A stretch of DNA of 25,156 nucleotides, from positions 1 to 25,156 of the IMG/VR virus record IMGVR_UViG_3300027974_000148; one strand, given 5' to 3'. Position 1 is the stretch's first letter, and each line of letters begins with the position of its first letter. Source of the DNA: a virus. The notes beneath the pieces are model-generated. The model was not told where the DNA came from, ran no database searches, and was given only the letters and a program-made list of their open reading frames with translations. Positions 14,380-24,656 of the stretch are shown here, in pieces. The position numbers and the translations under genes were made by a program.

Positions 14380-15878
14380 TTAAGAACCTGTCAACACGCC
14401 TTGTAATTGAGCATTTGAAGTAGTCAAGTTACCAGCCCAACCGTATAACTTAACGATTGCATCTTGGTTGATTGACTGACGCTCGCCACCGATAGGAACG
14501 AAATTACGCTCTTTGTGTGGGCGGAAGAAGATGTAATTAGTGTTCAAGAAGTACATATACAATGCGTTTTCTTGAGCGCCAATACCACCACCTAATACCA
14601 CATCAGCAGACATACCGCCACCGTAGAACTTCAATGATGCAAAGCCAGCCGCGCCTTCTTCAACACCAGCAATACGCTGAATAGCTTGCAATGAAGCAAC
14701 ATAGCGTGTGTATAGTGTGTTACCAGCAATAATCAGGTCAGTCTTATCAGTTCCACGAACGGACTTGATAGCGGCTGTTGTCATTGCGGCTTGGATCAAA
14801 GCGGATGTGTCAGCACCAGTTGTTGCTTGGTTTCTCCAGAACTCCCAATTGGCTCTATTAATGCCACCGTACGTTCCAGATGTAGGTGATGTAGAAATTG
14901 CGGCCGCTAGACCAGTAATGTTCTTACCACCATTACCTGTACCGTCACCATAAAGGTCGGTAGAGATACGGTTTAACAAGCGTGCTTCAGAAACTTGCAT
15001 ACGGCCGTCTAACAGGTCGATGATCGCCTCTTTGGAACTGTTTTGCAACATTTCTAGACCACTCATTGTCACAGAATCAGCATACTGAGTAATGCTGTAC
15101 TGAGCCGCAGAGATAGGGCTATCAGGGGTGATGTTTAATACTTCATCAATTTTGTTATCGTAGTGGCTCTTTATCCGCTACTTCAATATGTCACCATACT
15201 GTTCAGACTATATCATCCCTTTCGGGTGGGAGGCTCGTGGGGGTATTACTGATTTCTCTCGACCCCTAGTCGTTACACCTTCTGTGTCCCTAGCCCTTTC
15301 GGGTTACATACACAGCTTGGCTCGGTATTATCTTTAAACTCACCTTAAAATCTAAAGGTTTCCACCGAATTCATCCCATTTGCTACAAAAACTTGCTTAC
15401 TGCAAATTAATGAAGGGGCTAGAAGTCAACCCACTATAACTGTTTGCATTGTTAGTGTTTGGATCATTGTACATGATCTCCTCGCCTATTGTTAATGGTC
15501 ACTAACTTAACCATGTTAGGTCATTTCTGCCTAACTCTTGGACTTAAATTACATCAAGTTATATCCAAGTGCAGACTATCGCTTCACCTTTGCAGGTGTT
15601 CTCTCGCTTAGTCGTTCAGGCTGTATTTAAACTTGCCCCTTGTTGTCCCCTTCGGGAGTTCCAAGTCAATCAGAGAGAATTCTCACATCTGAGTTTTAAT
15701 TCAGAGTGACCCCAACATTAAGGATTACATTACCACCTGAGAAGGGCCGTACATTTCCCTTACTATTTAAACGCTGAAGAATTGCGTTGTTCTGCGTTAA
15801 GTTGTCTGCCAATACTCCGCTACGGCTTTGAATGGTAGTAGCGATAATATCGGTGATTGCGCTATTTGCGAATGCCAT
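14380..15878 (-). CDS. Major capsid protein, gene split by two group I introns
   Basis: Proposed join, - strand: exon 1 15878-15721 (158 nt), exon 2 15484-15429 (56 nt), exon 3 15146-14380 (767 nt); total 981 nt, 326 residues, in frame. Exon 1 encodes MAFANSAITDIIATTIQSRS to about residue 52, exon 2 about IMYNDPNTNNANSYSG, exon 3 from EVLNITPDSPISAAQ to the C-terminus. Tyr72 is split T|AT. Without splicing, exon 1 runs into a TAA at 15696. The chain resembles a capsid family of about 330 residues (MSGLEMLQNSSKEAI, LLNRISTDLYGDGTGNGG) with an HK97-type role; this is from memory. It follows the scaffold gene by 23 nt with an AAGGA SD. An alternative junction 1 (after 15717, resuming at 15480) also keeps frame and length but gives Asn-Glu instead of Leu53-adjacent Glu-Glu. 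Confidence 0.85.
15147..15428 (-). ncRNA. Group I intron 2 in the capsid gene (subgroup IA, ORF-less, 282 nt)
   Basis: On the - strand, P1 pairs exon GGGT (15432-15429) with GCCC (15419-15416), giving the required U-G at the 5' site. P2 is ATTTGC/GCAAAT, P3 TGGGA (15378-15374)/TCCCA (15231-15227), P4 CGGT/ACCG (15367-15364, 15326-15323), P5 ACCTT/AAGGT, P6 CTGTGT/ACACAG. P7 is GACTA (15271-15267) with TAGTC within GATATAGTCTG (15214-15204). GGGG/CCCC between P7 and P3 is P7.1, typical of IA introns. P8 has a GAAA loop, P9 CAGTATG/CATATTG with GTGA loop, P9.2 GTAG/CTAC. The end AACAAAATTG supplies the terminal G. The order is that of phage introns such as those of Twort (recalled). There is no homing endonuclease ORF. 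Confidence 0.9.
15485..15720 (-). ncRNA. Group I intron 1 in the capsid gene (ORF-less, 236 nt)
   Basis: On the - strand, P1 pairs exon ATCCT (15725-15721) with GGGGT (15713-15709), U-G at the cut. P2 is TCACTCTGA (15709-15701) with TCAGA-t-GTGA (15692-15683). P3 CTCTC (15677-15673)/GAGAG (15605-15601). P4 ACTTG (15666-15662)/CAAGT (15635-15631). P5 CCC-GAA-GGG. P7 GACTA (15613-15609)/TAGTC (15578-15574). P8 CACCT-gcaa-AGGTG (15598-15585). P9 CTTGGA/TCCAAG, P9.1 GTTAGG/CCTAAC, then ATGGT/ACCAT. The end AATAGG gives a terminal G. There is no P7.1 insert, so it is a different subgroup from intron 2. Boundaries may move by up to 5 nt. Confidence 0.85.
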
Positions 15879-17007: not shown

Positions 17008-17406
17008 CTATCTGTAATTAAGTTTGGAATAAGTGATTTCCGCAATTTCACGCTTACGGGCTTCATGTTCTTTTTTGCTAAATTCATGCGTTTTTTGGGC
17101 AGTTGGTACATCGTTACCCAATTCAATACAATTATTGCGCTTTAGATTTTCACGGTGCTTAGAACGGCTAGAAACCCATGTACCATCAGCCATGCTAATG
17201 TGGCCTTGAATATCAGGAACTACCATAGGGGCTTCTTTTGGGGTCATATTTAGCTTGGCTTGCCACGCTTCTTCAGCTTCAGGCGTATTAAACGGAATAT
17301 TCCAGTAAGCAAGGTACTTTTCCTTGTCATCATATTGCGTTGCATCATATTCTTCATGGTCAACCTTGCAATGTGGGCATTTAACGGTGACTTTGACTAA
17401 AGCCAT
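17008..17406 (-). CDS. Zinc-ribbon-like hypothetical protein
   Basis: A 132-residue protein. The N-terminus has VKCPHCKVDH (C10, C13, H17), half of a zinc ribbon; the second pair is not obvious, with only C93 further on. The C-terminal half contains GTWVSSRSKHRENLKRNNC, then IELGNDVP, a pattern I recall from phage FmdB-like zinc-ribbon proteins. The tail is basic and helical (KKEHEARKREIAEI). It has a strong SD (AGGAG) and overlaps the end of the glycosyltransferase by 1 nt. Role unknown; nucleic-acid or protein binding is likely. Confidence 0.65.
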   Translation of the reverse strand: MALVKVTVKCPHCKVDHEEYDATQYDDKEKYLAYWNIPFNTPEAEEAWQAKLNMTPKEAPMVVPDIQGHISMADGTWVSSRSKHRENLKRNNCIELGNDVPTAQKTHEFSKKEHEARKREIAEITYSKLNYR

Positions 17407-18311
17407 TACATTCTCCTTATTATTTCGGGTAATTGGTCGTATTCATTTGGTCTAAGTAGGCAAATGCTGTCGTACCAACGGGCATTTTTCCATCTCCAGC
17501 AAACAAATTCTTCTTTTGGTAGCAAAACTACGCATTTCACGCCCAAAGCACCAGCAAGGTGAGCCGTTCCCGTGTCAACAGTAACAATTCCCTTCATAGC
17601 TTTCATGTGGCTGGCTGTTTTTACCCAATTTTGCTTCCAGCCATCGTTAGGTAATGGGTGAAATAAGCCATCAGAATTAGGGTTTAAGCTGTAACAGTCA
17701 TCCCCAACCAATTCAGCCATGTGTTCATGGGCAATTGACTTAATGTAATACAAAGTTTGTTTAGATGCTTCCCAATTTACGCCAATTTTGGATGGAATAT
17801 TGCTAGGTTGGGCGTGTAAATACCCTTCTGAACCTACAATTTTCTTGCGTGTTACTGGAAACATTGCTTTTACAATAGGGTGCGACAAAGAAATGTAATA
17901 AGGCAATGACATTGACCCAATCCAATAATCAGATTCATTGGCAACCCCTTCTAAACCGTTGCTAAACACATCTACAGCGTGTATTTGCCCTAAAAGGTAA
18001 TGCAATGTACCTTCTTGCAAAACAACAACTTGTTTAGCCCCTAAAGCCTTTAATGCTGGCAAAAAACGGGCAAACATAATAATGTCACCAAAACCCTGTT
18101 CCATTTGTACTGTGATTGATTTACCCATTAGGGATTCACCTCTCCATACAGGCATTTTTAACGCAGGGGCATAGGGCTGGGCTTGCTTTGCAATTATTTC
18201 TGGATGCCAGCGGTATTCAAACTCCCTAAAACCAGCTTCATAGCGGCCAGCGTGTAGGTGTTCGTAAGCCTTCTTATATTCCGTGTGCGGATTTAATGTA
18301 AGAGCAGTAAT
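17406..18311 (-). CDS. GT9-like glycosyltransferase, start uncertain (ATT at 18311 or ATG at 18155)
   Basis: The enzyme resembles heptosyltransferase-type family GT9 and TPR-linked glycosyltransferases: EQGFGDIIMFARFLPALKAL (nucleotide-sugar fold start) and VDTGTAHLAGALGVKCVVLL (donor-binding loop). From the ATG at 18155 it has 249 residues, but that ATG has no SD and cuts the conserved block WRGESLMGK just after its beginning. The same frame is open back to 18320 and encodes typical family residues (YEHLHAGRYEAGFREFEYRW). This part has no ATG, GTG or TTG. ATT at 18311, 7 nt after GAGG, would give 301 residues. It overlaps the end of the upstream gene by 19 nt. It may modify host lipopolysaccharide or virion glycans. 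Confidence 0.75.
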   Translation of the reverse strand: MTALTLNPHTEYKKAYEHLHAGRYEAGFREFEYRWHPEIIAKQAQPYAPALKMPVWRGESLMGKSITVQMEQGFGDIIMFARFLPALKALGAKQVVVLQEGTLHYLLGQIHAVDVFSNGLEGVANESDYWIGSMSLPYYISLSHPIVKAMFPVTRKKIVGSEGYLHAQPSNIPSKIGVNWEASKQTLYYIKSIAHEHMAELVGDDCYSLNPNSDGLFHPLPNDGWKQNWVKTASHMKAMKGIVTVDTGTAHLAGALGVKCVVLLPKEEFVCWRWKNARWYDSICLLRPNEYDQLPEIIRRM

Positions 18312-18763
18312 AGTGCGGCCTCATCGTCAAGTTCCTCTTGGCGTTTGGCTTCCATTACCCTAAGTTGCATCTCAATGTTTGCAACTTCTTGTCTGTAAGC
18401 TACTGCCGCAAGGATGTTATCCCGTTGTCTTTCAAGGTAGCTTATTGACCGTTGTAATTCTTCTGTTTCAGCTAACGGTATATCAGCTTTAACCTCTTGT
18501 TTTGATTGTACTTTAGTTTGCTTAACTTTTGCAATAGGTTGTGGATCAATCTGATCCTTGAAGGCTTGCTTGCGTGAAGCGTTTGCATCTCTTGTAGCTT
18601 GTTCAAGTTTGCGTTGGCGGTCAGCTATTTTGTGCTGTAGCTTTTGTATTCTACGGAGTTCTTCTTTAGTCCAATGGCCACCATCATCCCCACCTACGGG
18701 TTCTACATTGATTTGAAATGCGTTATTTTGAAACGCATTAGGCTGAAAAGCGGTTTGAAACAT
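18293..18763 (-). CDS. Coiled-coil hypothetical protein with FQxNAFQ repeats
   Basis: A 156-residue protein. The N-terminus carries tandem Phe-Gln units (FQTAFQPNAFQNNAFQ), a short repeat I recall from other phage late-gene proteins. A Gly/Asp linker and WTKEELRRIQKLQHKIADRQ follow, then two long coiled-coil stretches (about 33-70 and 98-150), ending in five Leu and His. It starts one base inside the stop of the upstream gene. The 3' end overlaps the open frame of the glycosyltransferase. Probably virion-associated; no enzymatic motif. Confidence 0.65.
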   Translation of the reverse strand: MFQTAFQPNAFQNNAFQINVEPVGGDDGGHWTKEELRRIQKLQHKIADRQRKLEQATRDANASRKQAFKDQIDPQPIAKVKQTKVQSKQEVKADIPLAETEELQRSISYLERQRDNILAAVAYRQEVANIEMQLRVMEAKRQEELDDEAALLLLLH

Positions 18764-19422: not shown

Positions 19423-22377
19423 TTAGTAAGTCATTTCTGTTGTACGGATTTGGCAAACTGTACGAATTGTTGTAGCGGCTTGCCCTGTAAAGGTAACTCT
19501 TAAACCACCATTGGTTGTATCGGCTGTAACTGCAATAGCCCATGTTGCCGCACCAGCATCAGCATAAAGGGAAGTTACTGTAGAACCAACTAAAGCTGTA
19601 GTTCCTACACCAGCACCTCGTTTAATTACACCCTCAATAGTCCAGCCTTTAGTATCTCCACCACCAGTTACTCCTGATACCACTTCACCAGTAAAGAAGT
19701 AAGCAGAGTTGTTAGGTAGTATTACTTGGTTTACTCCGCTTGCGGCATTAGAATCAGAACATAAAGCTGTAGCAGTTGCGTCTGTAGTTTGTCTTGCAAG
19801 AACTAATAATGCGGATTGAGATATTCCTGTTACATCTCCAATTGGATTTACTCCACTAAAAACCGCATTACCCAGAATGGCTCTTGTTGTTGAACGCCTT
19901 CCACTTAAACAAGAAGAATAATCACCGCTTGCTGTATTTCTTGACCCAAGAACCGATGAACTGGTTGCTGATGATAAATTACCAAAGCCAGAAGCAATAA
20001 AACTTGTTGTTCCTGATGCTGTATTACCAGCAACACTACTACCAAATGTGCCACCACCAGCCACAACAGAACCAATGCCTGTAGCTTGATTAGCTTGTCC
20101 ACCACCAACAAAAGACCAATCCCCACTAGCCACATTCCTATTAGCCGCAGTACCAGCATCGCCACCACCACCGATAAATGAATAAGCCCCTGTAGCTTGG
20201 TTATTACCACCGCCTACTACTACTCCGTGAGGTGTGTAGAAAGATAGCGTAGAGGTAGATGAACCTGATGCGACTTGGGAAAGGGTAAGGCTTGTTCCTG
20301 ATATAGCGGCTACATAAGTTGGTGGAAATGAATTAATACTTGTACCAGAAATTATTTGACCAACTTTGATATTAGCGTTAGAACCACTTAATGTAACCGC
20401 AGTAGTGGCATTCATTGTTCCTGATTGCGTTGTTACTGCGGCTGATGCAGTTCCAGAATTAGCATATCCACCACCAATAAAGTTAAAAACACCGCTAATA
20501 GAATTTGAATATCCTGTAACAATTCCAGAATATAAATTACCATAACCACCACTATTTGCTATGTTAGAAAGTCCGTTTCCAACAAATGTATAAGTTCCTG
20601 TTGCAGAATTTGATTGACCGCCAGTTACTGTGCTTCCATAACCATCAACCTTATTATATTGACCACCAGCCAAAACTGTGTAAGAACTTGAAGCAACTTG
20701 ATTGGCATTGGTTCTAATGGTCTGCCAATCAACAGCATTAGCACCCCTAGCATTACCACCTACTGTAGATGATGTAGTAGCTTGTGCTTGTAATGCGCCT
20801 GTTCCTGCTGGAGAAACATATAAAGCACCATTAGATTCTAGTCCTAGTCCTGCTACTCCACTAAAGGATAGGGTAGGAGTTCCGTAGACTACTGTAGTGG
20901 TTGTGGCAACATAAGTATTTGCAACAGAACCCATTTCTACTTGAGTTCCATAAACAAATGCACCTGATGTTCCATCTCCAGCAAATGTTGCCCCAAAAGC
21001 AGTTAAAGTTGCCCCTGATGCGTAAGGAGTAATTGTTGCCCTTGAGGAAGATGTAGGTGTTCCTGTGGTTGTTAATGTAAGCCTATACCAACCAGTTGCA
21101 CCTGTTACAGCAGTAATTGTTCCTGTGCATCCTGTATTTGGAGTTGCCGTTACCGCAGTTAAATTGTAAGAACAAGCAAATGTGCCAGCAGTAGCATCAT
21201 TAATATAAAATAATGTATAACCACTTGCTTTTACATAAACACTAATAGTAAAGGTTGTTGTTGAAGAAAAAGCGGCTGTGCTATTTGCAAGATAATGTGC
21301 AGTATTTGTAACTGTTGGGACAAGTAAAGATGCAGTAGAACCGCCAACAGGGTCAGATTGTGAACCAGTAACTGTAATTGCACCATTACTCCAACCAGTT
21401 ACAAAGTTATTAGAATATTGGATTAAATTTTGCCCAGTACCTTTTAATACTTCTGTCTGTCCTGTAATCGTGGTTGCAGTAATAGCGGCTGGGGTAGTGC
21501 CACCAATGACTGTGTTGTCTATTGTGCCGCCAGTTATTGCAGGAGTTGTTAGCGTAGGGCTAGTATTAAGTACATTTGAACCACTACCAGTTGATGTTGT
21601 AACCCCTGTACCACCTCTGTTTACAGCAACAGTATTACCATTCCAAGTAGCTGAAGTAATAGAACCAGCGTAATCAAAAGTATTGGTAGACCAACTTACA
21701 TTTGATGGCGCTTGGTCATGTCTATCCCAAGAACCTGCGGCTATTGCATTAGATAACAAATTAACTAAAACAAATCCACCGCTAGGAACAGAAACAACTA
21801 AAGTATTAGAGTTGTTATTGACAGTTATTGCACCACTACTTTGGTTATTATCAAATTGAAAAACTGTGCCATTTGTTAATGTAGTTGCATCAGGCAATTT
21901 AATAACTTGACCACCTGAACCAGTAATTGTGTATCTTCTTGGCGATGCTACAGTTAATGTAATTAATGTACCTGATGCGGCAGTATTTGTATAAGAATCA
22001 TCTAAAGCATTGGCATTAATATTATTGTTATTATCAACAGTTACGCCAGAATTTTTAATCAACTTGCCAGTAGTAGAATCAAATCTAGCTATTGCATTGT
22101 TTGTGCTTGACGCTGGGCCAACTACATCACCTGAACCATTAGTAGTCCAAGTAGCATTAGTTCCATCAGTTGCTAGAACTTTGCCATTATTTCCTGTTTG
22201 GCTAGGAAGTAGATTATTTAAACCATCTGCGGCAGTAGAAGCACCTGTACCACCATTAGCTACAGGAATAGTACCTGTTAAATCATGGTCATCATTCCAA
22301 TTAGACGGCCTTACTACTGTTGCATCTGTGCCGTCAGGTATTGCGCTGACAAACTTATGCTTGACTGTTATAGCCAT
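19423..22377 (-). CDS. Long tail fibre with carbohydrate-binding-like and head-repeat domains
   Basis: A 984-residue fibre protein. Residues 1-75 carry the common opening (PSNWNDDHDLTGTIP, VANGGTGASTAADGLNNLL, NNGKVLATDGTNATW). A central domain (about 310-500) starts NLIQYSNNFVTGW and looks like a beta-sandwich carbohydrate-binding module. From about 560 to 850, repeats such as VTGGQSNSATGTYTFVGNG and VVGGGNNQATGAYSFIGGG resemble YadA-head left-handed rolls of trimeric adhesins. The last 125 residues (ARQTTDATATALCSD, NNSAYFFTGEVV, to RTTEMTY) form a C-terminal cap common in phage fibres. Its start has GGAG and overlaps the portal stop as TAATG. It is unusually placed between portal and scaffold. 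Confidence 0.85.
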   Translation of the reverse strand: MAITVKHKFVSAIPDGTDATVVRPSNWNDDHDLTGTIPVANGGTGASTAADGLNNLLPSQTGNNGKVLATDGTNATWTTNGSGDVVGPASSTNNAIARFDSTTGKLIKNSGVTVDNNNNINANALDDSYTNTAASGTLITLTVASPRRYTITGSGGQVIKLPDATTLTNGTVFQFDNNQSSGAITVNNNSNTLVVSVPSGGFVLVNLLSNAIAAGSWDRHDQAPSNVSWSTNTFDYAGSITSATWNGNTVAVNRGGTGVTTSTGSGSNVLNTSPTLTTPAITGGTIDNTVIGGTTPAAITATTITGQTEVLKGTGQNLIQYSNNFVTGWSNGAITVTGSQSDPVGGSTASLLVPTVTNTAHYLANSTAAFSSTTTFTISVYVKASGYTLFYINDATAGTFACSYNLTAVTATPNTGCTGTITAVTGATGWYRLTLTTTGTPTSSSRATITPYASGATLTAFGATFAGDGTSGAFVYGTQVEMGSVANTYVATTTTVVYGTPTLSFSGVAGLGLESNGALYVSPAGTGALQAQATTSSTVGGNARGANAVDWQTIRTNANQVASSSYTVLAGGQYNKVDGYGSTVTGGQSNSATGTYTFVGNGLSNIANSGGYGNLYSGIVTGYSNSISGVFNFIGGGYANSGTASAAVTTQSGTMNATTAVTLSGSNANIKVGQIISGTSINSFPPTYVAAISGTSLTLSQVASGSSTSTLSFYTPHGVVVGGGNNQATGAYSFIGGGGDAGTAANRNVASGDWSFVGGGQANQATGIGSVVAGGGTFGSSVAGNTASGTTSFIASGFGNLSSATSSSVLGSRNTASGDYSSCLSGRRSTTRAILGNAVFSGVNPIGDVTGISQSALLVLARQTTDATATALCSDSNAASGVNQVILPNNSAYFFTGEVVSGVTGGGDTKGWTIEGVIKRGAGVGTTALVGSTVTSLYADAGAATWAIAVTADTTNGGLRVTFTGQAATTIRTVCQIRTTEMTY

Positions 22378-24656
22378 TATTGAACTCCAATGATTTTGCC
22401 GTCAGAACCTCGAACCACTTGTTTGGGTTGATTTAGCTTATTCATTAATTCACCAAGCATCATAGCCATTTGGTTGCTATTGTTGTTGATTGCATTAGCG
22501 ACTGTTTCCATAGGGTTTTGCATTGCTTGTGCCATATCTTCTTCGTTAGCATAAGCCATTGCACCGTCTGAATCATCTGAACCAATCCTTGCAACTTCAA
22601 TCTTAGCCCCATTGTTAATATGCGCCAATAAAACTTGGGTATTGCGTTCAGTCATCATCTTCATTTGGGCAACTTTGACTTCCATGTCCATCTTCATTTG
22701 GTCAGCTTGCATTTTCATTTGGGCATCGGCCTGATTGCGCTGATCTTCCAATTGGAATTTAAGCTGGTTTTCTTGGGCTTGGTATTCTTGCTTGGCTTTC
22801 TCCAGTTCCATCTGCATTTGCATTTCGGCTTGCTTGGCTTGAGATTGGGCTTGTAACTTAGCCTGTTCCATCTGTGCTTGCATCTGTAACTTCTGCATTT
22901 CAGGTGATGGCGGCTTGGGTTGACCTTCTGCCGCTTTAGCTTGCTCACGGAACTTGTCGGCAGTTTCGTCAATCATGCCTTCCATTTGCTTACCAGCCTT
23001 AAACGCTGTTACGCCAAACTTGAGCATTTCCATAAGCAACGGTGTGAGTTCAGGAACGCCCTGTGCTACTGGTAAAGCGGTTTGCATAAAGCTACTGACT
23101 GCGGATAAAAACTCAATGCGGTTTTGCTTTTCTTGTTGCTCATCCTGATAGATCATGGAATCGCTAGTGACTTCGATACGGAAGTTCTTAGCTGGTTCGT
23201 CTTTCAGTAATGCAAGGGCTTGCGGTATAAGTTGTTGATCTTGCGGAGATAATTGCATTGCACCGCTAATCTTAACGATGGTGTCATCGGTGAAGTGTTG
23301 GCAAATAATCTGCGCTTTGATCTGCAACAGGGCAGTAGCAAAGTTCACTACATCGTGTTGCATCGTCTTTAAACGCCCAGAAGCGTTGTTAGACTTGATA
23401 ATTTGTGCGCCTAATGTTTCGCTTGGATCGGTTTGGCCACGCTGAATATCAGCAATACCCATGATTTCATAGATTTGACCTTTGACCTGCTCCATAGCTT
23501 GATAAGCCATTTGCAAGCCTTGAGCGATCGGAGCAATATCAACTAGGTTAATAGCCCCAGCCATGCCGCCCTTCTCACTAAATGCACCGTAATTCTTAAC
23601 TGGTAACAAGGCGTTGTTTTCGCCCTCAGTAAACAAACGCTGTAAGGATGGCTCAGAAGCATCGTAAACGCCCCGAACCTTGAGTGCTTGGATGAATCCA
23701 TCAATACGGTCTGCAAGCGTGTCTAGCTGTCTTGCTTGGTCTTGGTAAAGAACATAGTCAGGAACAGGTACAAGCGTATCAGTTGTTAGCGTAGAGAACA
23801 TTGGCTTTGGACATGGCCAGAAGTTCTCAAGCTGTAGCGGATCATCACGGGTATCAAGAATCTTACCTAAAGACTTAGATAGCCATAAAACTTGACCTGT
23901 AGTTTTATCCCAAATCTCATAAACAACGGCCTCAGATGAACCTTCGCCCATCTTTTCGTTGAAAGTTTTAGAAGTTTCAGGCTTAGTATCTAGCGGTATC
24001 TTGCCGCCTAGTTCTTCACCAAAGCGCTCAACAAGGGCTGGTCTGCCCATATAAACTTTACGCCATACCGCTGTTACTTCTTCCCATGTACGGGCAACGG
24101 TTAAACCAAAGTCACGCCAATGGACATAATCTACAGGGGCGCACTCATATTCAATACGCTCTTGGTTCTCACGAAAAATGCCGCCTTCGGTTTCTGCTTC
24201 GTCAATATCTTCTGTAATCTGAAAGCCATCATCGGGTGCGCCTTCACCTTCGCCGCCCATTTCACCAGTAATATGCGGTTCATAACGAACCCATGCTGTA
24301 CCACGCCCACCTAACAAACGGTCTTGAACGGCTTGCTTCATGGCACTAGCGTAGTCACCGTAATGCTCAACTTCATATTCTAGGGCGCGTTCTAACATCA
24401 TTGAGGCTACACGGCCAACAGGATCGTTGTCGCGGAATCTACGGCTTACATCTGGTCTTGGTAATCGGGCAAAGATTGCTGGAGTTATGGTTTGAACATT
24501 GCTCCATAGGATATTAAACTTTGCATTAGGGTTATTCCTAGTACGGGAATCATCGCGATACCGTTTGGTAATTTTGTCTGCTCTGCCTTCCCATTCTTTG
24601 TATGTACGCTCATACTGGGTAATGCAGTTATACCAATCTTGGTATGTATGTTCCAT
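22377..24656 (-). CDS. Portal protein, P22-like
   Basis: A 759-residue portal, the dodecameric ring through which DNA is packed and ejected. The N-terminal part (YQDWYNCITQYERTYKEWEG, RFRDNDPVGRVASMMLERAL) and the wing region (GGRGTAWVRYEPHI) match P22-type portals, about 725 residues in P22. The stretch YEIMGIADIQRGQTDPSETL, then AQIIKSNNASGRLK (about 396-429), is the typical stem and clip region. Residues about 560-690 form a very long Gln- and Met-rich coiled coil (QMQMELEKAKQEYQAQENQL), the barrel that extends into the capsid. It follows the terminase by 2 nt, with an AGGA SD. Confidence 0.9.
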   Translation of the reverse strand: MEHTYQDWYNCITQYERTYKEWEGRADKITKRYRDDSRTRNNPNAKFNILWSNVQTITPAIFARLPRPDVSRRFRDNDPVGRVASMMLERALEYEVEHYGDYASAMKQAVQDRLLGGRGTAWVRYEPHITGEMGGEGEGAPDDGFQITEDIDEAETEGGIFRENQERIEYECAPVDYVHWRDFGLTVARTWEEVTAVWRKVYMGRPALVERFGEELGGKIPLDTKPETSKTFNEKMGEGSSEAVVYEIWDKTTGQVLWLSKSLGKILDTRDDPLQLENFWPCPKPMFSTLTTDTLVPVPDYVLYQDQARQLDTLADRIDGFIQALKVRGVYDASEPSLQRLFTEGENNALLPVKNYGAFSEKGGMAGAINLVDIAPIAQGLQMAYQAMEQVKGQIYEIMGIADIQRGQTDPSETLGAQIIKSNNASGRLKTMQHDVVNFATALLQIKAQIICQHFTDDTIVKISGAMQLSPQDQQLIPQALALLKDEPAKNFRIEVTSDSMIYQDEQQEKQNRIEFLSAVSSFMQTALPVAQGVPELTPLLMEMLKFGVTAFKAGKQMEGMIDETADKFREQAKAAEGQPKPPSPEMQKLQMQAQMEQAKLQAQSQAKQAEMQMQMELEKAKQEYQAQENQLKFQLEDQRNQADAQMKMQADQMKMDMEVKVAQMKMMTERNTQVLLAHINNGAKIEVARIGSDDSDGAMAYANEEDMAQAMQNPMETVANAINNNSNQMAMMLGELMNKLNQPKQVVRGSDGKIIGVQ

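Follow-up and report, generated by a model that had tools for sequence, protein, structure and literature searches.

How is a glycosyltransferase-like (GT) gene translated when its frame offers no ATG, GTG or TTG ahead of 55 codons of family-typical sequence? The question is posed by a viral record, IMGVR_UViG_3300027974_000148, of which a stretch of 25,156 nucleotides (the window) was analysed. A reading made from the sequence alone had proposed three answers for this gene: a rare AUU start, the one it favoured, a -1 frameshift from the upstream gene, or decay of the start codon. Comparison with relatives favours the AUU start, from which the GT gene is very probably translated, directed by a GAGG motif.

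Anatomy of the gene junction

The GT gene lies on the minus strand between a 156-aa upstream gene and a gene of 132 aa that starts with an ATG overlapping the GT stop (17406). The features of the junction are as follows.

18763-18293, minus strand: upstream gene, 156 aa, MFQTAFQPNAFQ...DDEAALLLLLH, stop TAA at 18295-18293
18323-18321, minus strand: TGA closing the GT frame upstream of the AUU, the same in nearly all relatives
18322-18319, minus strand: GAGG, putative Shine-Dalgarno (SD) sequence of the GT gene, 7 bases (18318-18312) before the ATT
18311-17406, minus strand: GT gene as read from the AUU, 301 codons plus TAA at 17408-17406
18311-18309, minus strand: ATT (AUU), putative start codon of the GT gene; an in-frame ATT is present in the overlap at 155 of 155 junctions
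18311-18293, minus strand: overlap of 19 bases between the GT start and the upstream gene end
18155-18153, minus strand: first canonical ATG of the GT frame, read here as an internal codon and not as the start

The positions given by the sequence-only reading were all recovered. On the minus strand, the GT frame is open for 55 codons ahead of the ATG at 18155, with no ATG, GTG or TTG between that codon and the TGA at 18323-18321. The GAGG is followed by 7 nt and the ATT at 18311, and the frame of the upstream gene ends at 18293. The GT frame has a phase of -1 relative to the upstream gene, which runs 16 bases beyond the ATT before the end of its stop codon; in relatives this distance is 16, 19 or 13 bases. 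SD-like motifs also precede other genes of the window.

The upstream gene (18763-18293) had no confident family match. The GT protein scored 19.1 bits against the Pfam family Glyco_transf_9 (PF01075), under the curated cut-off of 22, and 46 of 53 members of the GT family matched PF01075 at E-values up to 0.01. Its structure was predicted with a pLDDT of 79 and a pTM of 0.62. The best PDB matches of the model were WaaF, GT9, WaaC and TibC, with E-values of ~1e-6 to 1e-4 and TM-scores of only 0.41-0.46. The protein is likely a GT9-like sugar transferase: it comes nearest to the GT9 heptosyltransferases (WaaC, WaaF, TibC) by a weak profile and by its best fold matches, may share their GT-B fold, and differs from them in scoring below the Pfam cut-off.

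The gene sits among virion-structure genes, with the portal at 22377-24656. A capsid-like gene (MAFANSAITDI...), also on the minus strand, is split by two group I introns (15184-15437 and 15552-15732) into exons at about 15878-15733, 15484-15438 and ~15150 down to 14380. Rfam Intron_gpI matched the introns with E-values of 2.9e-08 and 0.028, neither of them reaching the gathering score. An uninterrupted relative is found in locus L190. The sequence before the GT gene in that locus (L190 1-640, on a contig shared with L357) is unrelated to the upstream gene and gives no canonical GT start; it matched no other locus, and Rfam returned nothing significant for it. It is possibly an insertion, an intron or an assembly joint.

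Relatives and the conserved GAGG and ATT

Five scans of IMG/VR yielded 369 loci with both genes, representing 217 distinct junctions. Junctions were deduplicated by exact sequence and close relatives were kept, so changes were counted on the tree and not per sequence. The GT relatives were 52-100% identical. The arrangement of the window, with an upstream stop TAA or TAG, a GT frame open through that stop and no canonical start, was shared by 155 of the 217 junctions. A sister group of 37 has the same gene pair in the same -1 phase, joined by an ATGA stop/start overlap, which is absent in the window, where the upstream gene ends in CAT TAA. The remaining 25 have other arrangements, mostly separated genes with a GT ATG behind an SD-like sequence. 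In the GT tree, the 155 AUU-type junctions cluster together, separate from the sister group, and the cluster is broken only by two loci with canonical starts (L203, L339). Rooting with outgroups of 25-29% identity gave a branch of 2.8 and conflicting placements, so that the ATGA/AUU exchange may have run either way. The AUU-type phages are known here from metagenome records alone, and GenBank phages gave distant matches only.

Where the protein begins was visible in an alignment of 53 members. AUU-started proteins read I-T-T-x-L-N-P-H-x-Q-Y-K and ATG-started ones M-T-P-x-x-Q-Y-K or M-N-P-H-A-Q-Y-K, with a variable number of residues from the AUU to the conserved QYK. In five loci with separated genes (L203, L208, L219, L339 and L272), the GT ATG is some five codons or less from the AUU position. 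One of these, L339, lies inside the AUU group and begins with ATG (MNPHAQYK versus ITTALNPHAQYK); an inserted HNH-endonuclease-like ORF (L339 1355-1850) separates its two genes, and the GT ATG overlaps the TGA of this ORF. The same is seen in L272 of the sister group, with an HNH-endonuclease-like ORF at the same junction (L272 1547-2003) and a GT ATG overlapping its TGA. The two ORFs look related, and are independent insertions at the same junction in different groups. In L203, a GTG-started mini-ORF of 13 codons (1356-1410) with a strong SD, AAAGGAG, lies between the genes and ends in a TAA overlapping the GT start (ATGAGTTCTAA); it is perhaps a coupling leader.

The dN/dS ratio in three successive GT regions from just after the overlap was 0.05, 0.11 and 0.05, the first two covering the stretch up to the equivalent of the ATG at 18155 and the third lying further on. 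The first 50 residues are under purifying selection, so the protein needs them, and the start has to lie at the AUU or a few codons from it.

The bases of the putative start are themselves strongly conserved. All 155 junctions have an in-frame ATT within the overlap, 153 of them at one and the same codon, and the GAGG-N7-ATT block is exact in 148. An NTG occurs within the first 22 GT codons at only 2 of the 155. Seven junctions deviate from the block: L237, with the ATT 10 bases after the GAGG; L185, with 4 bases; and L204, L233 and L036-L038 (GAGA/GAGAG). In L034, one of the two exceptions in ATT position, GAGG and ATT are displaced together by one codon with the N7 spacing kept.

For a silent-site test, the Asp-Asp codons of the upstream protein served as the anchor, and sequences were included whether or not they carried GAGG or ATT. 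The A of the ATT is a third codon position in the upstream frame, and no change at it was inferred on the tree of 155 sequences; the codon holding it varies among TTA, ATA, CTA and GTA, while the A stays constant. Two changes were inferred for the first T of the ATT, one for the base after the ATT, and two for the silent G of the GAG codon in the SD, although 70% of the Glu codons elsewhere in the gene are GAA. Nearby silent sites changed 37, 26, 12, 32 and 35 times (most 26-37), with the caution that the start region is not unique in its conservation, since codons 79-100 of the upstream gene, ~170 bases upstream and taken up again below with the promoter-like element, are silent-site conserved as well. 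One relative has exchanged the upstream Leu for Phe, yet kept the ATT.

In the ATGA sister group, in contrast, GAGG-N7-ATT was found at 0 of 37 junctions and an ATT at that codon in 6 of 37, and the equivalent of the silent A changed 6 times among the 37 sequences. GAGG and ATT are frozen in the AUU group alone. These bases are thus conserved where a start is needed and not where an ATG supplies it. With its recurrence at 155 distinct junctions and its silent-site conservation at GAGG and ATT, the arrangement exceeds what chance would give.

Other ways into the GT frame

The sequence-only reading raised a -1 frameshift as the alternative. Programmed to occur close to where the upstream gene ends, it would give a fusion protein with no separate start, and would suit the -1 phase of the GT frame and its lack of a canonical start. 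The junctions, however, do not look like slip sites. The absence of a classic slippery heptamer, already noted for the window, extends to the whole group, with an in-phase XXXYYYZ heptamer at 0 of 155 junctions, and a codon that could re-pair in -1 at two positions is missing from 152 of the 155. Silent sites just past the overlap vary freely (pS 0.73) and RNA folding is no better than that of shuffled sequences (z -0.32), which together argue that there is no conserved frameshift stimulator. Moreover, the sister group reaches the same -1 phase via an ordinary ATGA overlap, and the conserved bases look like an SD with a suitably spaced codon rather than a place of slippage. On slip sites, silent sites and folding, frameshifting is not supported, and we consider it highly improbable. 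Reinitiation after termination, at an NTA codon (TTA, ATA, GTA or CTA) overlapping the upstream stop, is very unlikely as well. Such a codon is the positional equivalent of the ATG in the ATGA group, and some relatives carry ATA there; reinitiation at stop/start overlaps is common (PMC6728339). Against this, the first base of the codon is free, with A, T, G and C all common and 32-35 changes, and there is no SD at a fixed spacing. We know of no use of TTA, GTA or CTA as start codons. The NTA start also leaves the frozen GAGG and ATT, four codons upstream, unexplained. Because its first base is free, this codon cannot serve the whole group; in principle it could do so in the few ATA cases.

Translation could also begin inside the gene, at the ATG at 18155, which is the first canonical start of the GT frame in the window; the protein would then be made without its first 50 residues. 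Only 66 of 151 relatives have their first canonical start at the equivalent codon, and in several the frame runs for more than 55 codons without one. The 50 codons ahead of it are conserved as protein (LHAGRYxAGFRLFEYRWH), at the low dN/dS of 0.05-0.11, and ATG-started relatives begin upstream of this conserved region. No homologue starting at the equivalent of 18155 was seen among the relatives, and the ATG itself is not conserved, so we give an internal start hardly any credence. Decay of the start codon or a sequencing error, which would make the GT gene of the window's record a pseudogene, has nothing in its favour beyond the missing canonical start. The same start is missing in 155 distinct junctions from many metagenomes under strong purifying selection (dN/dS about 0.05-0.11), which refutes decay and excludes an error in the record; the probability of either is negligible.

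An ATG in the third frame (18322-18320, inside GATGAGG) was considered as an entry and rejected as unconserved: of 148 junctions, 13 have C and 2 have A in place of the T that precedes GAG.

Possible role of the AUU start and comparison with known systems

The AUU start is supported by the near-invariant GAGG-N7-ATT, by the absence of a canonical start and by the neighbouring ATG in rearranged relatives. In the mechanism we propose, the strong SD GAGG would direct initiation at the AUU 7 bases downstream, both elements lying in -1 phase within the final codons of the upstream gene. Initiation at the AUU, with fMet, would reach a fraction of the strength seen with AUG and so keep GT expression low, probably with help from ribosomes that terminate 10-16 bases downstream at the upstream gene's stop. 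Since AUU is a poor start in E. coli, the yield may be small. We infer initiation at the AUU itself, its strength, its coupling and its sensitivity to IF3.

In the history of the gene pair, the common ATGA overlap and the AUU overlap were probably exchanged for one another. With TAA or TAG instead of TGA as the upstream stop, an ATG is impossible there, and the GAGG-AUU a few codons upstream would take over. In -1 phase, any NTG start gives the upstream gene a TGN codon (Cys, Trp or stop). By sequence logic, an ATTA-to-ATGA change would turn the upstream TTA into TGA, at the loss of the last five or six residues; 154 of the 155 junctions are a single base from this change, which was not seen. 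What matters is either the upstream tail or the weak start, two options that the data do not separate. One version of the latter is that selection keeps the AUU as a regulator, holding GT low and IF3-sensitive so that its output follows the translation state of the host, and favouring it over an ATGA overlap, which most members could reach by a single base change if the upstream protein gave up its last residues. We regard this as possible but rather unlikely.

A further lead, and not a result, is a promoter-like element within the upstream gene.

18534-18505, minus strand: promoter-like TTGCAA-N18-TACAAT in the upstream gene, noted for its consensus match and silent-site conservation
18499-18476, minus strand: conserved 24-base block CAAGAGGTTAAAGCTGATATACCG, immediately 3' of the -10-like box

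The silent sites of both elements are conserved in the AUU group as well as in the ATGA group. In the sequences scanned, the full element with CAAGAGGTTAAAGCTGATATACCG was found only in loci with this gene family; divergent variants of the promoter-like element exist. It may be an internal promoter giving the GT gene its own transcript. No regulatory RNA passed the gathering thresholds of Rfam.

Very few AUU-started genes are established, and the putative GT case is conserved over hundreds of phage records. The sister ATGA group would provide a natural experiment, in which a weak start replaced a strong one or was replaced by it. Gene callers limited to ATG, GTG and TTG would truncate or miss the GT gene in every member. 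No AUU start in a phage turned up in the literature searched, an absence that is weak evidence.

Among ATGA termination-reinitiation overlaps (PMC6728339), that of the sister group has the same gene pair in the same -1 phase; the window group differs in its upstream stop (TAA or TAG), in lacking the ATG, in overlapping by more bases (13-19) and in having a putative SD of its own. A conserved noncanonical start missed by gene callers is also known for sigR of Streptomyces (PMC5472188); there it is GTC and not ATT, and IF3 repression was shown experimentally. The closest parallels are AUU starts of cellular genes. E. coli infC starts with ATT (PMC5472188) and, like the phage GT gene, has no canonical start; its AUU serves IF3 autoregulation, whereas the GT gene encodes an enzyme, has its AUU inside the upstream gene and implies no feedback. 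The second chromosomal AUU start of E. coli is that of pcnB (Binns and Masters 2002, as cited in PMC13009471). The weak AUU limits expression of this cellular gene, as proposed here for GT. To our knowledge, pcnB is not embedded in an overlapping gene. In Staphylococcus aureus, infC and ccpN start with AUA (PMC13009471; PMC5472188), and cvfC1 has an AUU start with a strong SD, both conserved across the genus, that gave ~10% of AUG in a reporter (PMC13009471). The strong, conserved SD ahead of an AUU is shared with the phage GT gene; cvfC1 differs in being the first gene of its operon, without overlap, and its start was measured by ribosome profiling and reporter, while that of GT is deduced from comparison. 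In its anatomy, the putative start of the phage GT gene thus resembles the AUU starts of infC, cvfC1 and pcnB.
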